From positions 1 to 15,015 of the forward strand of contig CALMWD010000442.1 in assembly GCA_937873105.1 (NCBI GenBank): a stretch of 15,015 nt of DNA, written 5' to 3'. Positions 7,932 to 14,068 of the stretch are shown here, piece after piece; the stretch's first letter is position 1; each line of letters starts with the position of its first letter. Origin of the DNA: an uncultured Rhodanobacteraceae bacterium. GTDB lineage: Bacteria; Pseudomonadota; Gammaproteobacteria; Xanthomonadales; Ahniellaceae. The translations under genes and the position numbers were made by a program. The notes under the pieces were generated by a model. It worked only from the letters and a program-made list of their open reading frames with translations. It did no database searches and was not told where the DNA came from.

Positions 7932-8455
7932 ATCGCCGCGTGCGCAGCTTTCCGCCGATCGTCGCCGCGAACGCGCGCGTGCTCATCCTCGGCTCGATGC
8001 CGGGCCTCGCCTCGTTGCAGGCGAACCGCTACTACGCGCATCCGCGCAACCAGTTCTGGCCGATCCTCGGCGAACTGCTCGGCTTCGATCCGCAGGGCGA
8101 CTATGCGCTGCGCGTGCAGTCGCTGCAGCGCGCCGGCGTCGCGGTCTGGGACGTGCTCGCCGAGTGCGACCGCGACGGCAGCCTCGACAGCGCCATCGAC
8201 CGCCACAGCGAGTTCCCGAACGACATCCCCGGCCTGCTCGCCGCACACCCGTCGATCCGGCGCGTCCTGCTCAACGGCCGGAAGGCCGCGACCAGCCTCC
8301 GCAGGCATCACCGCGAACTCGCCATCGACCACGTGATCCTGCCCTCGACCAGCCCGGCCCATGCCGGGATGGGCCACGCCGAGAAATCGGCCCGCTGGCA
8401 CCGCGTCTTGCGCGCGGCACTGGCCCGGTCAGGCGATCAGCCGCACTTGGAGTAG
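7928..8455 (+). CDS. Hypoxanthine-DNA glycosylase (uracil-DNA glycosylase superfamily, family 6)
   Basis: A 175-residue DNA repair enzyme expected to excise hypoxanthine (deaminated adenine) from DNA. Family 6 motifs are visible: LGSMPGLASL (21-30), YYAHPRNQFWPILG (35-48) with the conserved Asn of the active-site loop, and LPSTSPAHAG (138-147), the DNA-intercalating loop. It is a cytoplasmic single-domain protein of normal length. The ATG overlaps the NRDE stop (ATGA) and has no separate ribosome binding site, so translation is probably coupled. The last 19 bases overlap the 3' end of nrdJb on the other strand. Alternative labels in databases are 'DNA-deoxyinosine glycosylase' or 'G/U mismatch glycosylase'. 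Confidence 0.9.
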   Translation: MNRRVRSFPPIVAANARVLILGSMPGLASLQANRYYAHPRNQFWPILGELLGFDPQGDYALRVQSLQRAGVAVWDVLAECDRDGSLDSAIDRHSEFPNDIPGLLAAHPSIRRVLLNGRKAATSLRRHHRELAIDHVILPSTSPAHAGMGHAEKSARWHRVLRAALARSGDQPHLE

Positions 8456-9189
8456 CCGCAGTTCAGGCAGGTGGCGCAGCCGTCCATGATGATGGTGGCC
8501 TTGGTGTTGCACTTGTTGCACAGGGTCGCGCCGGGCGGGAACTGTTCGGCGACCTCGGTCGGCACGACCGGCGCTTCCGCGGCTACGTCAGTGTTTTTTT
8601 TTGAGCGCGACTCGTACTGCGCACGCTTCTCGGCGATCAGCTTGCGCGCTTCCGCGCTCATTTCCGGATCGTGGATCAGGCCGATCGACTTCAGGTGCTC
8701 CTCGACCACGGTGCCGATCTCGGCGACGATCGAAGGCATGTAGACGCCGCCGGCCTTGAAGTAGCCGCCGCGAGGGTCGAACACCGCCTTCATCTCCTCG
8801 ACCAGGAAGGTGACGTCGCCGCCCTTGCGGAAGACCGCGCTCATGATGCGCGTCAGCGCCACGATCCACTGGAAGTGGTCCATGTTCTTCGAGTTGATGA
8901 ACACCTCGAACGGACGGCGCAGCTCATGCTCCGTGCCCTGGTTCAGCACGATGTCGTTGATCGTCACGTACAGCGCGTGCTCGAACAGCGGCGACTTGAT
9001 CTTGTAGGTCGAGCCGACCAGCACGTCCGGGCGCTCGACCTGCTCGGTCATCTGGATGACTTCGGCGGTCTTCGGCAGGGCAATGGCTTCGGCCGGCGCG
9101 CTCATCGCGACCTCGGGGACGGCCCTGGCCTTGTCTTCCGGTCGCACCACGTTGTAGCCCTTGATCTTCTTGCCGATCTTGATCGCCAT
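8437..9189 (-). CDS. nrdJb: NrdJb: TSCPD-domain partner subunit of split class II ribonucleotide reductase
   Basis: A 250-residue protein matching the small half of the split adenosylcobalamin-dependent ribonucleotide reductase. Residues about 55-170 form a TSCPD domain (VGSTYKIKSPLFEHALYVTI ... GGYFKAGGVYMPSIVAEIGT). A charged linker (175-200) leads to a cysteine-rich tail: CNKC (224-227), CATCLNC (238-244) and the terminal YSKCG (Cys249). In one-piece class II enzymes the C-terminal cysteines re-reduce the active site, so this subunit presumably does so in trans for NrdJa; in P. aeruginosa both halves are needed (literature knowledge). The ATG at 9189 follows GGGA by six bases; an in-frame Arg-rich extension upstream to 9453 looks non-coding. 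A run of nine A residues lies at codons 196-199 (see findings). Confidence 0.9.
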   Translation of the reverse strand: MAIKIGKKIKGYNVVRPEDKARAVPEVAMSAPAEAIALPKTAEVIQMTEQVERPDVLVGSTYKIKSPLFEHALYVTINDIVLNQGTEHELRRPFEVFINSKNMDHFQWIVALTRIMSAVFRKGGDVTFLVEEMKAVFDPRGGYFKAGGVYMPSIVAEIGTVVEEHLKSIGLIHDPEMSAEARKLIAEKRAQYESRSKKNTDVAAEAPVVPTEVAEQFPPGATLCNKCNTKATIIMDGCATCLNCGYSKCG

Positions 9190-9459
9190 TGCTGTTCCCG
9201 TCCTGGTCTGGCGCATCGCTGCGCGCGTTGTCGTCGAATGGCGCCGTGGCGCCGGCGCCGCGCGACCCGCGTCGCGCGACACCCTTGGAAAGAGGCTCCT
9301 GCGCATGGTCATGCGCAGGAGGATGTCCGGGCCGGCACCGCGGATGCGCAGCGACCGGTGGACGCGCCTCAAACACACGCTGACCCGGCGTGTGCGAGAC
9401 CTCGGTCCGTCAATCGCGGAACGCCTAGACTGCAGCGCCCGCTGGACCGCCAAAACGCA
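9190..9459 (-). other. Structured leader between the H1-like terminator and nrdJb
   Basis: There is no convincing gene here. Read leftward, it holds three inverted repeats: CACACGC/GCGTGTG (9374-9394, followed by TTTG), CTCCTGCGCATG/CATGCGCAGGAG (9296-9321, 12 bp with a 2-base loop) and CGCGCGAC/GTCGCGCG (9259-9278). No cobalamin riboswitch signature was found. The nrdJb promoter, if separate, must be here, but no good -35/-10 pair stands out. Confidence 0.4.
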
Positions 9460-9482: not shown

Positions 9483-9947
9483 TTACTTCTTCTTCGCGGC
9501 CTTCTTGGCAGCCTTCTTCGGAGCGGCCTTCTTCGCTGCCGGCTTCGCAGCCTTCTTCGGAGCGGCCTTCTTCACGACTTTCTTCGCTGCCGGCTTGGCG
9601 GCTTTCTTGACGGCCTTCTTCGGAGCGGCTTTCTTGGCAGCCTTCTTCGGAGCAGCCTTCTTGGCGGCCTTCTTCGGCGCGGCCTTCTTCGCTGCCGGCT
9701 TCGCCGCCTTCTTCGCGGCCTTCTTCGGAGCGGCGGCCTTCTTGGCCTTGGCCACGGCCTTCTTCACCGCCTTCTTCGCGGCGCCGGCCTTCTTGGCGAC
9801 CGCCTTCTCGGCCTTCACGACCGCCTTCTTGGCCTTGGCGACGACCTTCTTGGCGCCCGCCATCGCGTCGCTGGCCTTCTCGACCACCGCGGCCTTGGCG
9901 TCGGCCATTGCATCGGCCACGTTCGACATCATCGAATCATTACTCAT
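9483..9947 (-). CDS. Histone H1-like Lys/Ala-rich DNA-binding protein
   Basis: A 154-residue highly basic protein. Residues 1-32 are neutral to acidic and helix-prone (MSNDSMMSNVADAMADAKAA...). Residues 33-154 are almost entirely Lys, Ala, Val and Pro in repeats such as KKAAPKKAAKKAAPKK and KPAAKK, ending in KKK. This matches eukaryotic H1 C-tails and bacterial H1-like proteins (Bordetella BpH1, Chlamydia HctB, the AlgP tail), which bind and compact DNA without strong sequence specificity. GGAGG (9961-9957) nine bases before the ATG supports the start; ATGs at codons 6 and 7 are less well placed. Nearly every Lys is AAG and every Ala GCC/GCG, so it is not foreign in codon use. It lies between nrdJa and nrdJb, with its own terminator. 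Confidence 0.88.
   Translation of the reverse strand: MSNDSMMSNVADAMADAKAAVVEKASDAMAGAKKVVAKAKKAVVKAEKAVAKKAGAAKKAVKKAVAKAKKAAAPKKAAKKAAKPAAKKAAPKKAAKKAAPKKAAKKAAPKKAVKKAAKPAAKKVVKKAAPKKAAKPAAKKAAPKKAAKKAAKKK
9487..9760. repeat. Degenerate tandem repeats within the H1-like gene
   Basis: Units such as GCCTTCTTCGGAGCGG and GCCTTCTTGGCAGCC recur on the + strand, encoding (A)APKKAAKK blocks. Such tracts change length easily by slippage, so the gene is likely to vary in length between strains. Confidence 0.7.
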
Positions 9948-10163: not shown

Positions 10164-12311
10164 TCAGAATTTCCCGTAATACCCTTCCTTCAGCGCGTCG
10201 AAGAGATTGGCCGCGGTGTGGATTTCGCCGTCGTACTCGATCTCTTCGTTGCCCTTTGCCTCGACCACGGTGCCGTCTTCCAGCTCGAATCGATACGTCG
10301 TGTTCTCGAGGTCCTGCTCCTTCACGAGCACGCCCTGGAACGCGGCGGGATTGAAGCGGAAAGTCGTGCATCCCTTCAAGCCCTTTTCGTACGCGTAGCG
10401 GTAGATGTCCTTGAAGTCCTCGTAGGCGTAGTCGGTCGGCACGTTCGCGGTCTTGCTGATCGACGAATCGACCCACAGCTGCGAGGCCGCCTGGATGTCG
10501 ACGTGCGCCTTCGGGGTGATGTCGTCGGCGGCCACGAAGTAGTCGGGCAGCTTCGCATCCGCCTCGCTGGCGTACGGCATCGCCTTCGGGTTCACCAGGG
10601 TGCGGTAGGCCAGCAGCTCGTAGGAATAGACCTCGACCTTTTCCTTCGACTTCTTGCCTTCGCGGATGACGTTGCGGCTGTAGTGGTGCGCGAACGACGG
10701 TTCGATGCCGTTGCTGGCGTTGTTGGCGAGCGACAGCGAGATCGTGCCGGTCGGCGCGATCGAGCTGTGGTGGGTGAAGCGCGCGCCGGTCTCGGCCAGT
10801 TTCGCCACCAGTTCCGGCGCCACCGAGGCGACACGCTGCATGTAGCGCGAATACCTGGCGTGCAACACCTTGCCCTTGAGCACATCGCCGACCTTGATGC
10901 CGTCGCGGATCATCTCCGGACGCTTGCGCAACATCTCGCCGGTGACCACGAAGTCCTGCTCCATGATCGGCGCCGGCCCCTTTTCCTCGGCCAGCGTCAG
11001 TGCCACTTCCCAGCCGGCCAGGGCCATTTCGCGCGACACGTCCTCGGTGAACTTGCAGGACTCCGGCGCGCCGTAGGCCATGCGCAGCATGGTCAGGGTC
11101 GAGCCGAGGCCGAGGAAGCCCATGCCATGGCGGCGCTTGCTCAGGATCTCGTGGCGCTGCTGCTCCAGCGGCAGGCCGTTGATCTCGACGACGTTGTCGA
11201 GCATGCGCGTGAACACGCGCACGACCTCGCGGTATTCCTCCCAGTCGAAGCGCGCCTTGCTGGTGAACGGATCGCGCACGAACTTCGTGAGGTTGACCGA
11301 ACCGAGCAGGCAGGAACCGTAGGGCGGCAGCGGCTGCTCGCCGCAGGGGTTGGTGGCGCGGATGTTCTCGCACCACCAGTTGTTGTTCATCTCGTTGACG
11401 CGGTCGATCAGGATGAAGCCCGGCTCGGCGTAGTCGTACGTCGAGACCATGATCATGTCCCACAGGTGCCGGGCGCGGATGTGGCCATAGATCTTGCAGG
11501 CGACCATGCCGTCGTCGCGGACGACGTAGTTCTGCTGGGTCGGCCAGTCGCGCCAGACCACCTGCCGGGCGTCGCCGAGGTCGATCTCGCCCTGTTCCTT
11601 GACGTGGATCGGGAACACCAGCGGCCAGTCGGCATCGGCGGCGACCGCGTCCATGAACTCGTCGGTGATCAGCAGGCTGAGGTTGAACTGGCGCAGGCGC
11701 CCGTCCTCGCGCTTGGCGCGGATGAAGTCCTTCACGTCGGGGTGCGACACGTCGAAGGTGCCCATCTGGGCGCCGCGGCGGCCCCCGGCGGACGAGACGG
11801 TGAAGCACATCTTGTCGTAGATATCCATGAACGACATCGGGCCCGACGTGTATGCGCCGGCGCCGGCCACGAAGGCGCCGCGCGGGCGCAGCGTCGAGAA
11901 CTCGTAGCCGATGCCGCAGCCGGCCTTCAGCGTCAGACCGGCCTCGTGCACCTTCTCGAGGATGCCGTCCATCGAATCGGTGATCGTGCCCGAGACCGTG
12001 CAGTTGATCGTGCTGGTCGCCGGCTTGTGCTCGAGCGCGCCGGCGTTCGAGGTGATGCGTCCGGCCGGGATCGCGCCGCGACGCAACGCCCACAGGAAGC
12101 GCTCGTACCAGTACTTCTGCTTCTCGGCGGTCTGCTCGGTTTCCGACAAGGCCCGGGCGACACGCTTGTAGGTGTCGTCGATGGTCTCGTCGATGGCTTC
12201 GCCGCGCTTGCTTTTCAGGCGGTACTTCTTGTCCCAGATATCGAACGAAGCCGGCTGCAGCGGGATTTCCACCGTTTCGCGGGCCACAGCTTCAAGGCGC
12301 ACTGAACTCAT
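10164..12311 (-). CDS. nrdJa: NrdJa: catalytic subunit of B12-dependent (class II) ribonucleotide reductase
   Basis: A 715-residue catalytic half of an adenosylcobalamin-dependent ribonucleoside-diphosphate reductase; it reduces ribonucleotides to deoxyribonucleotides independently of oxygen. Visible catalytic residues are the redox Cys104 in TINCTVSGT, the radical-site motif NPCGEQ (321-326: Asn321, Cys323, Glu325) and the second redox Cys334 in YGSCLLGSVNLTKF. TGTISLSLANNASNG, further on, belongs to the barrel. No ATP-cone is apparent at the N-terminus. The protein ends ...EGYYGKF without the C-terminal cysteine pair of one-piece enzymes; NrdJb carries it. The ATG at 12311 is preceded by GGAGG (12326-12322); the GTG at 12329 overlaps that site and is rejected. 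The start overlaps the stop of a small upstream ORF (ATGA). Confidence 0.94.
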   Translation of the reverse strand: MSSVRLEAVARETVEIPLQPASFDIWDKKYRLKSKRGEAIDETIDDTYKRVARALSETEQTAEKQKYWYERFLWALRRGAIPAGRITSNAGALEHKPATSTINCTVSGTITDSMDGILEKVHEAGLTLKAGCGIGYEFSTLRPRGAFVAGAGAYTSGPMSFMDIYDKMCFTVSSAGGRRGAQMGTFDVSHPDVKDFIRAKREDGRLRQFNLSLLITDEFMDAVAADADWPLVFPIHVKEQGEIDLGDARQVVWRDWPTQQNYVVRDDGMVACKIYGHIRARHLWDMIMVSTYDYAEPGFILIDRVNEMNNNWWCENIRATNPCGEQPLPPYGSCLLGSVNLTKFVRDPFTSKARFDWEEYREVVRVFTRMLDNVVEINGLPLEQQRHEILSKRRHGMGFLGLGSTLTMLRMAYGAPESCKFTEDVSREMALAGWEVALTLAEEKGPAPIMEQDFVVTGEMLRKRPEMIRDGIKVGDVLKGKVLHARYSRYMQRVASVAPELVAKLAETGARFTHHSSIAPTGTISLSLANNASNGIEPSFAHHYSRNVIREGKKSKEKVEVYSYELLAYRTLVNPKAMPYASEADAKLPDYFVAADDITPKAHVDIQAASQLWVDSSISKTANVPTDYAYEDFKDIYRYAYEKGLKGCTTFRFNPAAFQGVLVKEQDLENTTYRFELEDGTVVEAKGNEEIEYDGEIHTAANLFDALKEGYYGKF

Positions 12312-12406
12312 TCCGTTGTTTCCTCCCACAAGGTGTCGTCAACCCCGCCGGCCACGACACGGAAACCGCCCGCGACGGTGCAGATGAACTGCCCATCGTT
12401 TCTCAT
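12308..12406 (-). CDS. Small ORF (32 aa) overlapping the nrdJa start
   Basis: ATG at 12406 to TGA at 12310-12308, encoding MRNDGQFICTVAGGF... ending DDTLWEETTE. I do not recognise it. Its stop shares ATGA with the nrdJa start, and its start shares the A of TGATG with the stop of the small ORF before it, so three reading frames are chained. About three quarters of codons end in G or C. The ribosome binding site of nrdJa lies inside its last codons. It has no strong ribosome binding site of its own, so coupling to the previous ORF is expected. It could be a leader peptide that opens nrdJa for translation or a small protein in its own right. Confidence 0.5.
   Translation of the reverse strand: MRNDGQFICTVAGGFRVVAGGVDDTLWEETTE
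12333..12360 (-). promoter_or_regulatory. Hairpin just upstream of the nrdJa ribosome binding site
   Basis: GTGTCGT (12333-12339) pairs with ACGACAC (12354-12360) around a 14-base loop, six bases upstream of the GGAGG used by nrdJa and inside the 32-codon ORF. Ribosomes translating that ORF would melt it. Confidence 0.4.
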
Positions 12407-12498
12407 CAAAGACGGATTCCGCGGCTTGCGGCGAGGCCCCGGCACCCTGCGGTGCCGGTGGGTTCAACCTCATGGCAAACCCAATTGGTTGGGTTCAT
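12406..12498 (-). CDS. Small ORF (30 aa) at the head of the nrdJa operon
   Basis: ATG at 12498 to TGA at 12408-12406, encoding MNPTNWVCHEVEPTGTAGC... ending ASRGIRL. I do not recognise it. It has the best ribosome binding site of the region (AGGAG at 12508-12504, five bases before ATG) and lies about 36 bases behind a near-consensus promoter. Two hairpins are embedded in it: AACCCAA/TTGGGTT (12478-12495) straight after the start codon, and CCGGCACC/GGTGCCGG (12439-12458). Third-position GC (about 63%) is lower than in neighbouring genes, which fits a leader peptide under RNA-structure constraint better than an ordinary gene. It may be a leader peptide or a small protein with two cysteines. 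Confidence 0.5.
   Translation of the reverse strand: MNPTNWVCHEVEPTGTAGCRGLAASRGIRL
12439..12458 (-). promoter_or_regulatory. 8-bp GC hairpin inside the first small ORF
   Basis: CCGGCACC (12439-12446) and GGTGCCGG (12451-12458) form a perfect stem with a 4-base loop. No T-run follows, so it is not an intrinsic terminator; it could pause or control translation of the nrdJa leader. Confidence 0.4.
12478..12495 (-). promoter_or_regulatory. Hairpin directly after the first small ORF's start codon
   Basis: AACCCAA (12478-12484) pairs with TTGGGTT (12489-12495) around a 4-base loop, covering codons 2-7 of the 30-residue ORF, so it could influence initiation there. Confidence 0.4.
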
Positions 12499-12540
12499 GG
12501 AGGCTCCTCACCACTAGATGTTGTGACTCAGCGGAACGGA

Positions 12541-12569
12541 ACCTTACGCTTCGTGTCAGAGGGTGTCAA
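12541..12569 (-). promoter_or_regulatory. Near-consensus sigma-70 promoter for the nrdJa operon
   Basis: Read leftward: TTGACA (12569-12564, perfect -35), a 17-base spacer, then TAAGGT (12546-12541, TAnnnT -10). Transcription would start near 12534, leaving about 36 bases before the first small ORF and about 220 before nrdJa, so there is no room for a full cobalamin riboswitch. Confidence 0.75.
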
Positions 12570-12635
12570 CACGCGGAAACGCACGTGCCATCGTGCAAGT
12601 ATCTGCTGCGCCGCAAAAATTTGGACACCACCACG

Positions 12636-12663
12636 GGAACCCGCACCCAGCTTGAGGGTCCGA
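12636..12663 (+). promoter_or_regulatory. Candidate sigma-E (RpoE) promoter of the degQ-like gene
   Basis: GGAACCC (12636-12642), a 16-base spacer and TCCGA (12659-12663) resemble the extracytoplasmic stress consensus GGAACTT-N15/16-TCTGA, with two mismatches in the first box and one in the second. It lies 46 bases before the start codon. degP/mucD genes are classical sigma-E targets (established), which supports the call. Confidence 0.45.
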
Positions 12664-12709
12664 AGACCGACCCCACCTCGTCCGTTCGTGCTGTTCCGGA
12701 GTGCATTCG

Positions 12710-14068
12710 ATGTCGATCCGCCGCCTCAAGTCTGTTCTGCCGCTGCTGCTGGCGCCCCTGCTCGCAGCCGCACAGCTGCCCGCCGCGGTGGATGGCCAGC
12801 CGTTGCCTTCGCTGGCGCCGATGATCGAGCGCGTGCAGCCGGCGGTGGTCAACATCAATTCGCAGACACACGTGAAGGTGCGCGACCCGTTCTTCGACGA
12901 TCCGTTCTTCCGCCGCTTCTTCAACAGCCCGGCGGTGCCGCGCGAACGCGTCCAGCAGTCGCTCGGTTCGGGCGTCATCGTCGACGCGGTGAAGGGCTAC
13001 GTGCTGACCAACAACCACGTCATCGACGGCGCCGACGACATTCAGGTGACCCTGGCCGACGGGCGCACGCTGAAAGGCCGATTCATCGGCAGCGACCCGG
13101 ATTCCGACGTCGCCCTGGTGCAGATCCCCGCCGAACGCCTGTCGGCGCTGCCGCTCGCGGATTCGGACGCGCTGCGCGTCGGCGACTTCGTCGTCGCGAT
13201 CGGCAATCCCTTCGGCATCGGCCAGTCGGTGACCTCCGGCATCGTCTCGGCGCTCGGCCGCTCCGGACTGCGCGGCGTCGGTGTCCAGGACTTCATCCAG
13301 ACCGATGCCTCGATCAATCCCGGCAACTCCGGCGGCGCGCTCGTGAACCTGCGCGGCGAGCTGGTCGGCATCAACACCGCGATCTATTCGCCCTCGGGCG
13401 GCAACGTCGGCATCGGCTTCGCGATCCCGGCCAAGCTCGCCCGAGACGTGATGCGACAACTGCTCGCCTACGGCGAGGTGAAGCGCGGCTCGCTCGGCGT
13501 CGACACCCAGGACGTCACCGCCGACATCGCCCCGATGCTTGGCCTGAAGAGCGCGAAGGGCGCGGTGGTGACGCGGGTGCTCGCCAGCTCCCCGGCCGCC
13601 GCGGCCGGACTGCGCGAGGGCGACGTCATCACCGCGCTGAACGGCAAGCCGGTCAATGCCTCCGGAGAACTCGCCAACCTCGAAGGCCTGCTCCCGGTCG
13701 GCACCCCGGTGAAGATCTCGGTGCTGCGCGACGGCGCGCCGTTGAGCCTGACCGCCACGCTGAAGCCGACCGAGCTGCGCCAGACCACGGGCGACAAGCT
13801 CGACGCCGGCCTGGCCGGCGCCACGCTCGGCGATCTGCCCGACAAGTTCCGGCGCCAGGGCCTGTCCGGGGTGATCGTCAACGCCGTGGCCCAGGGTTCG
13901 CGCGCCGCCGCCACCGGCCTGCGCGCCAACGACCTGATCGTGGCCGTCAACCAGGTCGAGGTCCGCGACCTGACCGAGCTGGAGACCCGCGTCGCCAAGC
14001 GCCGCAGCACGCAGCTGTTGCTGACCGTGGTGCGCGGGCGAAGCGCGTACTACATGCTGGTCGAATAG
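12710..14068 (+). CDS. DegQ/MucD-like periplasmic serine endoprotease (Do family)
   Basis: A 452-residue HtrA-type protease/chaperone that degrades misfolded periplasmic proteins. A signal peptide is present (MSIRRLKSVLPLLLAPLLAAA). The S1 trypsin-like domain spans about 35-245 with the catalytic triad His103 (NNHVIDGA), Asp133 (DSDVALVQI) and Ser207 (INPGNSGGAL). PDZ1 is about 258-345 (SLGVDTQDVTADIA ... SPAAAAGLREGDVITALNG) and PDZ2 about 365-452 (GSRAAATGLRANDLIVAVNQ). The activation loop after the signal peptide is short (PFFDDPFFRRFF), as in DegQ/MucD rather than DegP. No cysteine is seen. The ATG at 12710 follows GGAG by eight bases; the GTG at 12701 overlaps that site. Unlike mucD in many gammaproteobacteria, it is not beside rpoE/mucA here; it stands alone, divergent from nrdJa, with a strong terminator. 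Confidence 0.94.
   Translation: MSIRRLKSVLPLLLAPLLAAAQLPAAVDGQPLPSLAPMIERVQPAVVNINSQTHVKVRDPFFDDPFFRRFFNSPAVPRERVQQSLGSGVIVDAVKGYVLTNNHVIDGADDIQVTLADGRTLKGRFIGSDPDSDVALVQIPAERLSALPLADSDALRVGDFVVAIGNPFGIGQSVTSGIVSALGRSGLRGVGVQDFIQTDASINPGNSGGALVNLRGELVGINTAIYSPSGGNVGIGFAIPAKLARDVMRQLLAYGEVKRGSLGVDTQDVTADIAPMLGLKSAKGAVVTRVLASSPAAAAGLREGDVITALNGKPVNASGELANLEGLLPVGTPVKISVLRDGAPLSLTATLKPTELRQTTGDKLDAGLAGATLGDLPDKFRRQGLSGVIVNAVAQGSRAAATGLRANDLIVAVNQVEVRDLTELETRVAKRRSTQLLLTVVRGRSAYYMLVE

Follow-up and report, generated by a model that had tools for sequence, protein, structure and literature searches.

A predicted tandem NrdR operator and a probable leader open reading frame upstream of nrdJa in an uncultured Rhodanobacteraceae bacterium

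Results and Discussion

The stretch of DNA analyzed here (the window; 15,015 nucleotides (nt), contig CALMWD010000442.1 of assembly GCA_937873105.1) stems from an uncultured Rhodanobacteraceae bacterium and carries on its minus strand nrdJa (10164–12311), which encodes an adenosylcobalamin-dependent ribonucleotide reductase of 715 amino acids (TIGR02504: 587 bits at a cut-off of 400; PF02867 was also matched). The ATG of the gene at 12311 lies within an ATGA and is preceded by the ribosome-binding site GGGAGG (12322–12327), a Shine-Dalgarno (SD)-like site of a kind common in homologues. The leader upstream of it, read in the direction of transcription, begins with a sigma-70-type promoter (12541–12569) consisting of TTGACA (12569–12564), a spacer of 17 nt and TAAGGT (12546–12541). 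It is followed by two predicted binding sites of the regulator NrdR, box 1 (TCACAACATCTAGTGG, 12511–12526), which starts 14 nt past the -10 hexamer, and box 2 (ACCCAACCAATTGGGT, 12479–12494). Between the two boxes an AGGAG motif (12504–12508) serves as putative SD of a short open reading frame (ORF) of 30 amino acids plus TGA (ORF1, MNPTNWVCHEVEPTGTAGCRGLAASRGIRL, 12406–12498); the three members of the genus exhibit AGGAG, AGGAG and AGGAA at this place. The stop of ORF1 overlaps as TGATG with the start of a second ORF of 32 amino acids plus TGA (ORF2, 12308–12406). Three inverted repeats are present in the leader: box 2 itself (12494–12479), CCGGCACC-GCAG-GGTGCCGG within ORF1 (12458–12439), of which the inner stem GGCACC/GGTGCC is GGTACC/GGTGCC in the genus mate G002, and GTGTCGT...ACGACAC ahead of the ribosome site of nrdJa (12360–12333), of which G002 breaks one pair. 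The promoter hexamers, the AGGAG, both small ORFs, the overlaps TGATG and ATGA and three hairpins had been listed in an original prediction made from the sequence alone, and all were recovered on the minus strand at the same positions. The description given there therefore stands, whereas its interpretation, a chain of two small ORFs controlling the translation of nrdJa, is supported for the start and length of ORF1 and not for ORF2 and the chain.

The nrdJ loci compared with the window came from two sources, namely 61 genomes including the window's own (51 with a match, 30 giving loci) and a scan of named genomes, from which the best 80 of at least 586 relatives were taken. After L001 (same place as L002) and four duplicates had been dropped, the set comprised 106 leaders, the window included; it retains near relatives, among them three near-identical pairs. 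The family of the window is sampled by ten genomes, all of which contain nrdJ, and its genus (g1) by the window, G001 and G002.

Box 1 satisfies every core position of the 16-bp NrdR palindrome (C...G nine positions apart, AT centre). Of the 106 leaders, 103 contain its core (CWANATNTWG) within 450 nt, while only 0.8% of mononucleotide shuffles contain one. A core at -524 in L014 raises the total to 104 of 106 nrdJ homologues; among the 106 leaders scanned, none was found in L064 and L066. When the leaders were anchored, L007 and L010 each showed a further box-like site (at -406 and -416, respectively), which was skipped. The best-fitting promoter of the anchored leaders has a TTGACA-like -35 (at least five of six positions) in 99 of 103 and a 17-nt spacer in 89 of 103. 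Both features occur jointly in 88 of 103 leaders, whereas 20 shuffles gave 2.9 on average (maximum 7). As this exceeds the shuffle expectation by far, the promoter of the original prediction is borne out; a generic promoter scan of the window did not report it. The box core is located 12–20 nt past the best-fitting -10 in 102 of 103 loci, so that both boxes would be transcribed as part of the leader, provided that transcription starts where predicted.

The centre of box 2 is 32 bp away from that of box 1. Strict partner palindromes of 105 boxes show the same preference, as 39 hits fall at +31 to +33 vs. 12 over 93 other offsets, and in the 103 anchored loci C was present at +31 in 88% and G at +42 in 82%. 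Such a spacing of two boxes at the promoter of a reductase gene, about three helical turns, is what is expected of an NrdR operator, as the NrdR tetramer fits two boxes at this distance in which conserved G-C pairs are separated by nine positions (PMC9110341). The strict motif CACWANATNTWGTG has a single site in the window's own draft genome (12512–12525) and is single-site in eight of the ten family genomes, always at most 0.42 kb upstream of nrdJ; in G006 it corresponds to the skipped site at -416. In G009 it occurs at two places, one of them upstream of nrdJ, and G008 contains no such site and exhibits a variant box instead. The other place in G009 (G009:C66:16352-16365, L137) is a second perfect NrdR-type palindrome, on a contig other than that of nrdJ. 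Of 21 genomes searched for the nrdR gene itself (TIGR00244), 17 gave a match, and both genus mates are among them.

Judging from these features, the conserved control element of the leader is a tandem NrdR operator just downstream of the promoter, to which NrdR is predicted to bind, and this known operator module accounts for the strong conservation of the leader. It also changes the meaning of the first of the three hairpins of the original prediction. The palindrome next to the start codon of ORF1 is indeed present (12494–12479); it is, however, identified as NrdR box 2 in the DNA. As box 2 underlies codons 2–7 of ORF1 (NPTNWV), both this hairpin and these codons are explained as DNA. Two palindromes about three turns apart before a class II reductase, with C and G at a distance of nine positions, are likewise present in the nrdJab of Pseudomonas aeruginosa and in the nrdRJ regulon of Streptomyces coelicolor, and the likeness to P. 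aeruginosa extends to the split into nrdJa and nrdJb (PMC9110341, PMC4409342). In P. aeruginosa, nrdJ is preceded by NrdR boxes and an nrdR mutant derepresses nrdJa aerobically (PMC4409342). The window differs in that its predicted transcription start precedes both boxes, while the boxes described in PMC9110341 lie upstream of the start and overlap it. A second difference from the NrdR regulon systems is that box 2 of the window is a degenerate palindrome and at the same time forms part of the codons of a leader ORF. No paper joining NrdR and Xanthomonadales was found in the literature searched, and one cites Xanthomonas solely in its references.

For ORF1, the first line of evidence is the position of its start. 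An ATG is found directly ahead of box 2 in nine of the ten family genomes, spanning members of all six genera, while the linker around it has otherwise diverged between genera. The equivalent place (24–27 nt from the core) bears an ATG in only six of 94 boxes of other loci. The second line is length, as the ORFs starting at this ATG measure 30, 30, 30, 30, 36, 31, 31, 34 and 34 codons in the nine genomes; the one of 36 codons would have 38 if counted from an ATG two codons earlier. Where two in-frame ATGs were present (L005 and L103), the inner one was taken (the outer ones give 38 and 37 codons). When the sequence after box 2 was shuffled, none of 1000 sets yielded as narrow a length range in seven lineages, and only nine of 243 natural control frames (3.7%) have 30–36 codons, figures which overstate the case, since the lengths had been seen before they were tested and shared ancestry contributes to them. 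The conservation of the frames and overlaps of the original prediction is thus split: ORF2 and the junctions TGATG and ATGA are lost in genus mates, whereas the ORF1 start and a length of 30–36 codons are kept in nine of ten family genomes. ORF1 is therefore probably a real leader ORF selected for its start and length.

The encoded peptide behaves differently. Among the three genus members nonsynonymous changes occur at the neutral rate in ORF1 (P 0.13–0.48) and in ORF2 (P 0.28–0.94), while nrdJ codons 2–30 are under purifying selection in the same genomes (P ≤ 0.001); the power of this test is low, with 5–15 substitutions per pair (5–13 for ORF1). The synonymous/nonsynonymous comparison that the original prediction had proposed for both peptides thus shows purifying selection on neither. 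In-frame stops are not significantly avoided in the genus (P 0.70). Outside the box-2 codons the peptides are barely alignable between genera, save for a partial likeness in G003, the ORF1 of which is 43% identical to that of the window. A six-frame search of 200 genomes of the order with ORF1 was convincing solely within the genus (syntenic G003: E 0.007; unrelated G185: E 0.003). In G003 the DNA after box 2 matches the window at 36 of 69 positions, evenly spread over the codon positions (12, 13 and 11 of 23), and in 283 comparisons (mean 19.9, standard deviation 4.0) an unrelated locus, shifted by one register, reached 34 of 69. The likeness of the G003 ORF1 is accordingly no more than suggestive. 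The homology search proposed for both peptides thus gave matches in the genus and none convincing beyond it in the 200 genomes.

Short ORFs are not confined to the family of the window. In the order-wide count, which covered the 91 leaders with a length of 150 nt or more, contained ATG ORFs of 12–45 amino acids with an SD occur in 29, compared with 7.2 ± 2.3 in shuffles, and 13 other triplets used in place of ATG gave 1–14 in the same count. ORFs of near-constant length were found in the nrdJ leaders of three other groups. In the genus of Stenotrophomonas, GGAAGGCGTGC[AG]ATG is present in 15 of the 17 loci in which an nrdJ start was recognised; the ATG of the upstream ORF (uORF) is missing in L147 and L148, which were excluded from the list, seven loci (L149, L154, L156–L160) have no nrdJ start recognised by the pattern used, and L161, L162, L177 and L178 were left out of the analysis. 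The uORF measures 22 codons in 14 of 15 loci (stops: TAA 10, TGA 3, TAG 1); with its GGAAGG it lies at about -160 to -80 from nrdJ (L138–L146, L150–L153, L027), and by eye its stop sits in the loop of an inverted repeat, e.g., GGCGCG-TAACC-ACGCGCC. In Pseudoxanthomonas an ORF of 18–19 codons, mostly starting with MRQEN or MGQE and with TGA as stop in 14 of 14, was found in 14 of 15 loci at about -165 to -85 (L163–L175, L019; L169 was chosen by a second pattern and excluded from the selection and in-frame-stop tests). In Arenimonas a 31-codon ORF is present in four of four loci, in one of them counted from the inner of two ATGs. The uORF frames of all three groups showed no purifying selection, with the nrdJ control of Pseudoxanthomonas reaching just P 0.076, and in-frame stop avoidance was not significant in Stenotrophomonas (P 0.32) and Pseudoxanthomonas (P 0.06).

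Two further observations concern the relatives. In leaders of Lysobacter and related bacteria (L040, L051, L060, L080, L096 and L102) a GGGG...GGCGCATG-like stretch was seen by eye about 80–110 nt past box 1; its ATG is missing in L061 and L073, and it may be a further leader element. In the Stenotrophomonas-containing genus an nrdJ match was obtained in 25 of 91 genomes, so the class II reductase is patchy there.

Taken together, the explanation which we consider somewhat probable is repression by NrdR plus one leader ORF, ORF1, of which the translation rather than the peptide probably matters. We infer all four of its parts from sequence, namely NrdR binding, the transcription start, the translation of ORF1 and an influence of ORF1 on nrdJ. 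At high deoxyadenosine triphosphate (dATP) NrdR would bind the two palindromes 32 bp apart behind the promoter and transcription would stop, a mechanism that is established elsewhere. The derepressed mRNA is predicted to start just before box 1, about 7 nt past TAAGGT, and would carry ORF1. Ribosomes would translate ORF1, and the act of translating, not the peptide, would be what is selected. Such translation may keep the structured leader unfolded as far as about 90 nt upstream of nrdJ. If the consensus fold described below is real, a ribosome on ORF1 would open the pairing near the ribosome site of nrdJ, which is the version we favour. A Rho-linked uORF, for which a C-rich and G-poor sequence past its stop would be expected, was also considered and rejected, as the sequence from the stop of ORF1 to nrdJ contains more G than C in all nine family genomes with ORF1 (overall counts).

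Several observations weigh against this explanation. On the side of the operator, box 2 of the window is degenerate (C...G and flanking A/T fit, the central AT is absent), and the partner boxes are mostly degenerate as well, with 39 strict hits among 105 boxes. In addition, nrdR was not found in the window's own draft genome (67% complete), G007, G008 and G016 among the 21 genomes searched, and in P. aeruginosa the effect of nrdR on nrdJa is reversed without oxygen, nrdJa being lowered (PMC4409342). On the side of ORF1, G008 belongs to the same family and lacks the ATG, the SD outside of the genus is moderate in G003 and G004 and weak elsewhere, and neither ORF1 nor the uORFs of the three other groups exhibit detectable purifying selection. 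For the peptide of G003 an unrelated site is better genome-wide and another one is tied locally. The overstatement of the length figures belongs here as well. The order-wide excess weakens without the SD condition, where ATG ORFs are present in 59 of 91 leaders vs. 36.1 ± 3.9 in shuffles and other triplets reach up to 52, and with one random locus per group it amounts to 7.0 of 30 vs. 2.5 ± 1.6, with a shuffle maximum of 7.

An alternative is that the NrdR operator alone matters, the ATG being a family-specific extension of the operator (ATGA) and ORF1 an untranslated by-product. The TGA of this ATGA is kept in ten of ten family genomes, including G008 without the ATG, and ORF1 shows no purifying selection while its codons 2–7 are box-2 DNA. 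However, an operator alone explains neither the narrow length of 30–36 codons nor why nrdJ leaders are enriched in ATG ORFs preceded by an SD, and we regard it as a serious yet rather doubtful alternative.

Another possibility is that a structured, riboswitch-like leader RNA controls nrdJ and the ORFs merely overlap with it. The leader of the window folds better than its shuffles (z -3.2; -3.3 for the part after box 2), the leader of G001 also folds well, and 15 of 90 leaders are below -2. A consensus fold of the three genus members, in which the second half of ORF1 pairs with a segment that extends by two bases into the ribosome site of nrdJ, contains four two-sided pair changes, compared with 1.7 ± 1.0 in shuffles (17 of 500 as high). 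Moreover, the nrdJ of Streptomyces is preceded by a structured RNA family, the nrdJ RNA RF03034, likewise a leader element before a class II reductase gene (PMC8079986). On the other hand, the z of G002 is just -0.67 and the mean of the 90 leaders -0.46 (standard deviation 1.5), seven of 252 cells of the consensus are broken, and the weak covariation was counted in the very three sequences that had served to derive the structure. About a dozen nrdJ leaders end some 35–50 nt past box 2, which leaves no room for such a structure. Unlike the Streptomyces leader, that of the window has no match in Rfam (release 15): nothing was found in the window at the gathering score or in 12200–12750 up to E 5, and 18 loci searched up to E 1 yielded two unrelated hits far below threshold, mir-598 (L060) and SgrS (L002, outside of the leader). 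No cobalamin riboswitch model matched in the window, in 12200–12750 or in the 18 loci; RF03034 was unmatched in the general scans of window and leader, there having been no separate run of this single model. Control by a structured RNA alone therefore appears improbable. The sensing of B12 or amino acids through the leader, as suggested in the original prediction, is also disfavoured, as no riboswitch family was matched and the likely sensor is NrdR, which would respond to dATP/ATP.

The central claim of the original prediction was that TGATG and ATGA link ORF1, ORF2 and nrdJ by translational coupling. The overlap geometry of the window itself speaks for it, as does a predicted fold of this single sequence in which the unpaired probability of the nrdJ GGGAGG is just 0.18–0.33. 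Yet the start of ORF2 is changed from ATG to ACG (TGACG) in G002, and in G001 the ORF2 frame terminates ahead of nrdJ, so that the ATGA link is lost. Among 200 genomes of the order, ORF2 gave convincing matches only within the genus (next hit: E 0.02). The ATGA itself is present in 104 of 106 nrdJ genes because the proteins begin with Met-Ser or Met-Asn. ORFs of at least 12 amino acids ending in it (28 of 106 vs. 31.3 ± 4.3) and two-link chains (5 of 106 vs. 3.1 ± 1.8) are no more frequent than in dinucleotide shuffles. An SD-like 4-mer of its own at -18 to -5 is retained in 104 of 106 nrdJ homologues, whereas 20 shuffles gave 18.8 on average (maximum 25). With its ATGA made by the Met-Ser of nrdJ and a strong ribosome site owned by nrdJ itself, the sequence indicates that ORF2 and the stop-start chain are a coincidence, and the coupling must be considered very improbable. 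That one of the two peptides acts itself on the reductase, for which its position alone could be quoted, is hardly credible, since ORF1 and ORF2 change neutrally while nrdJ codons 2–30 are constrained and the peptides can hardly be aligned between genera beyond the box-2 codons.

The leader peptide attenuators of trp and his operons combine a short leader ORF with nearby inverted repeats, as is the case in the window. Unlike these, the window lacks a run of regulatory codons, and a scan of the minus strand for terminator-like sites gave none in 11500–13000. The toiL uORF of Escherichia coli (topAI-yjhQ) resembles ORF1 in being a short ORF in a structured 5′ leader; it acts, however, by stalling of the ribosome within it (PMC12121999), while the codons of ORF1 drift and contain no conserved stall motif. 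In the CruR-type uORF of Bordetella (DUF2946) translation controls downstream expression, but this uORF needs conserved CXXC and RAPP motifs (PMC9426467), whereas ORF1 has no conserved peptide past the box-2 codons. No paper on a leader ORF ahead of nrdJ was among the matches listed for the literature searched, to which subscription journals mostly do not belong, and PMC8079986, in the part available, names the nrdJ RNA and shows no leader peptide of nrdJ.

Divergent from nrdJa, a gene for a Do-family (DegP/DegQ-type) serine protease is located at 12710–14068 on the plus strand. Similar antisense protease frames upstream of nrdJ in some relatives (L015, L029, L047, L049, L057 and L107) suggest a kept protease-nrdJ neighbourhood. 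On the other side, a gene on the minus strand (9483–9947) encodes a histone H1-like protein with lysine/alanine/proline repeats (no Pfam or NCBIfam match), and sits between nrdJa and an nrdJb-like TSCPD gene (8437–9453).

Conclusions

Across the order, it seems possible, and is proposed here tentatively, that the nrdJ mRNAs of Lysobacterales share a type of leader ORF under selection for its start, its stop and its length, though not for its peptide. Translation over this set length would then control the synthesis of the class II reductase in addition to NrdR; in the family of the window the ORF starts between the two NrdR boxes. The operator part represents the expected control by NrdR, here traced through Lysobacterales. 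ORF1, if true, would add a translational layer to the supply of deoxynucleoside triphosphates and would be an unusual regulatory uORF in that only the translated span is conserved. Such a uORF would tend to escape gene finders and tests for peptide conservation alike.

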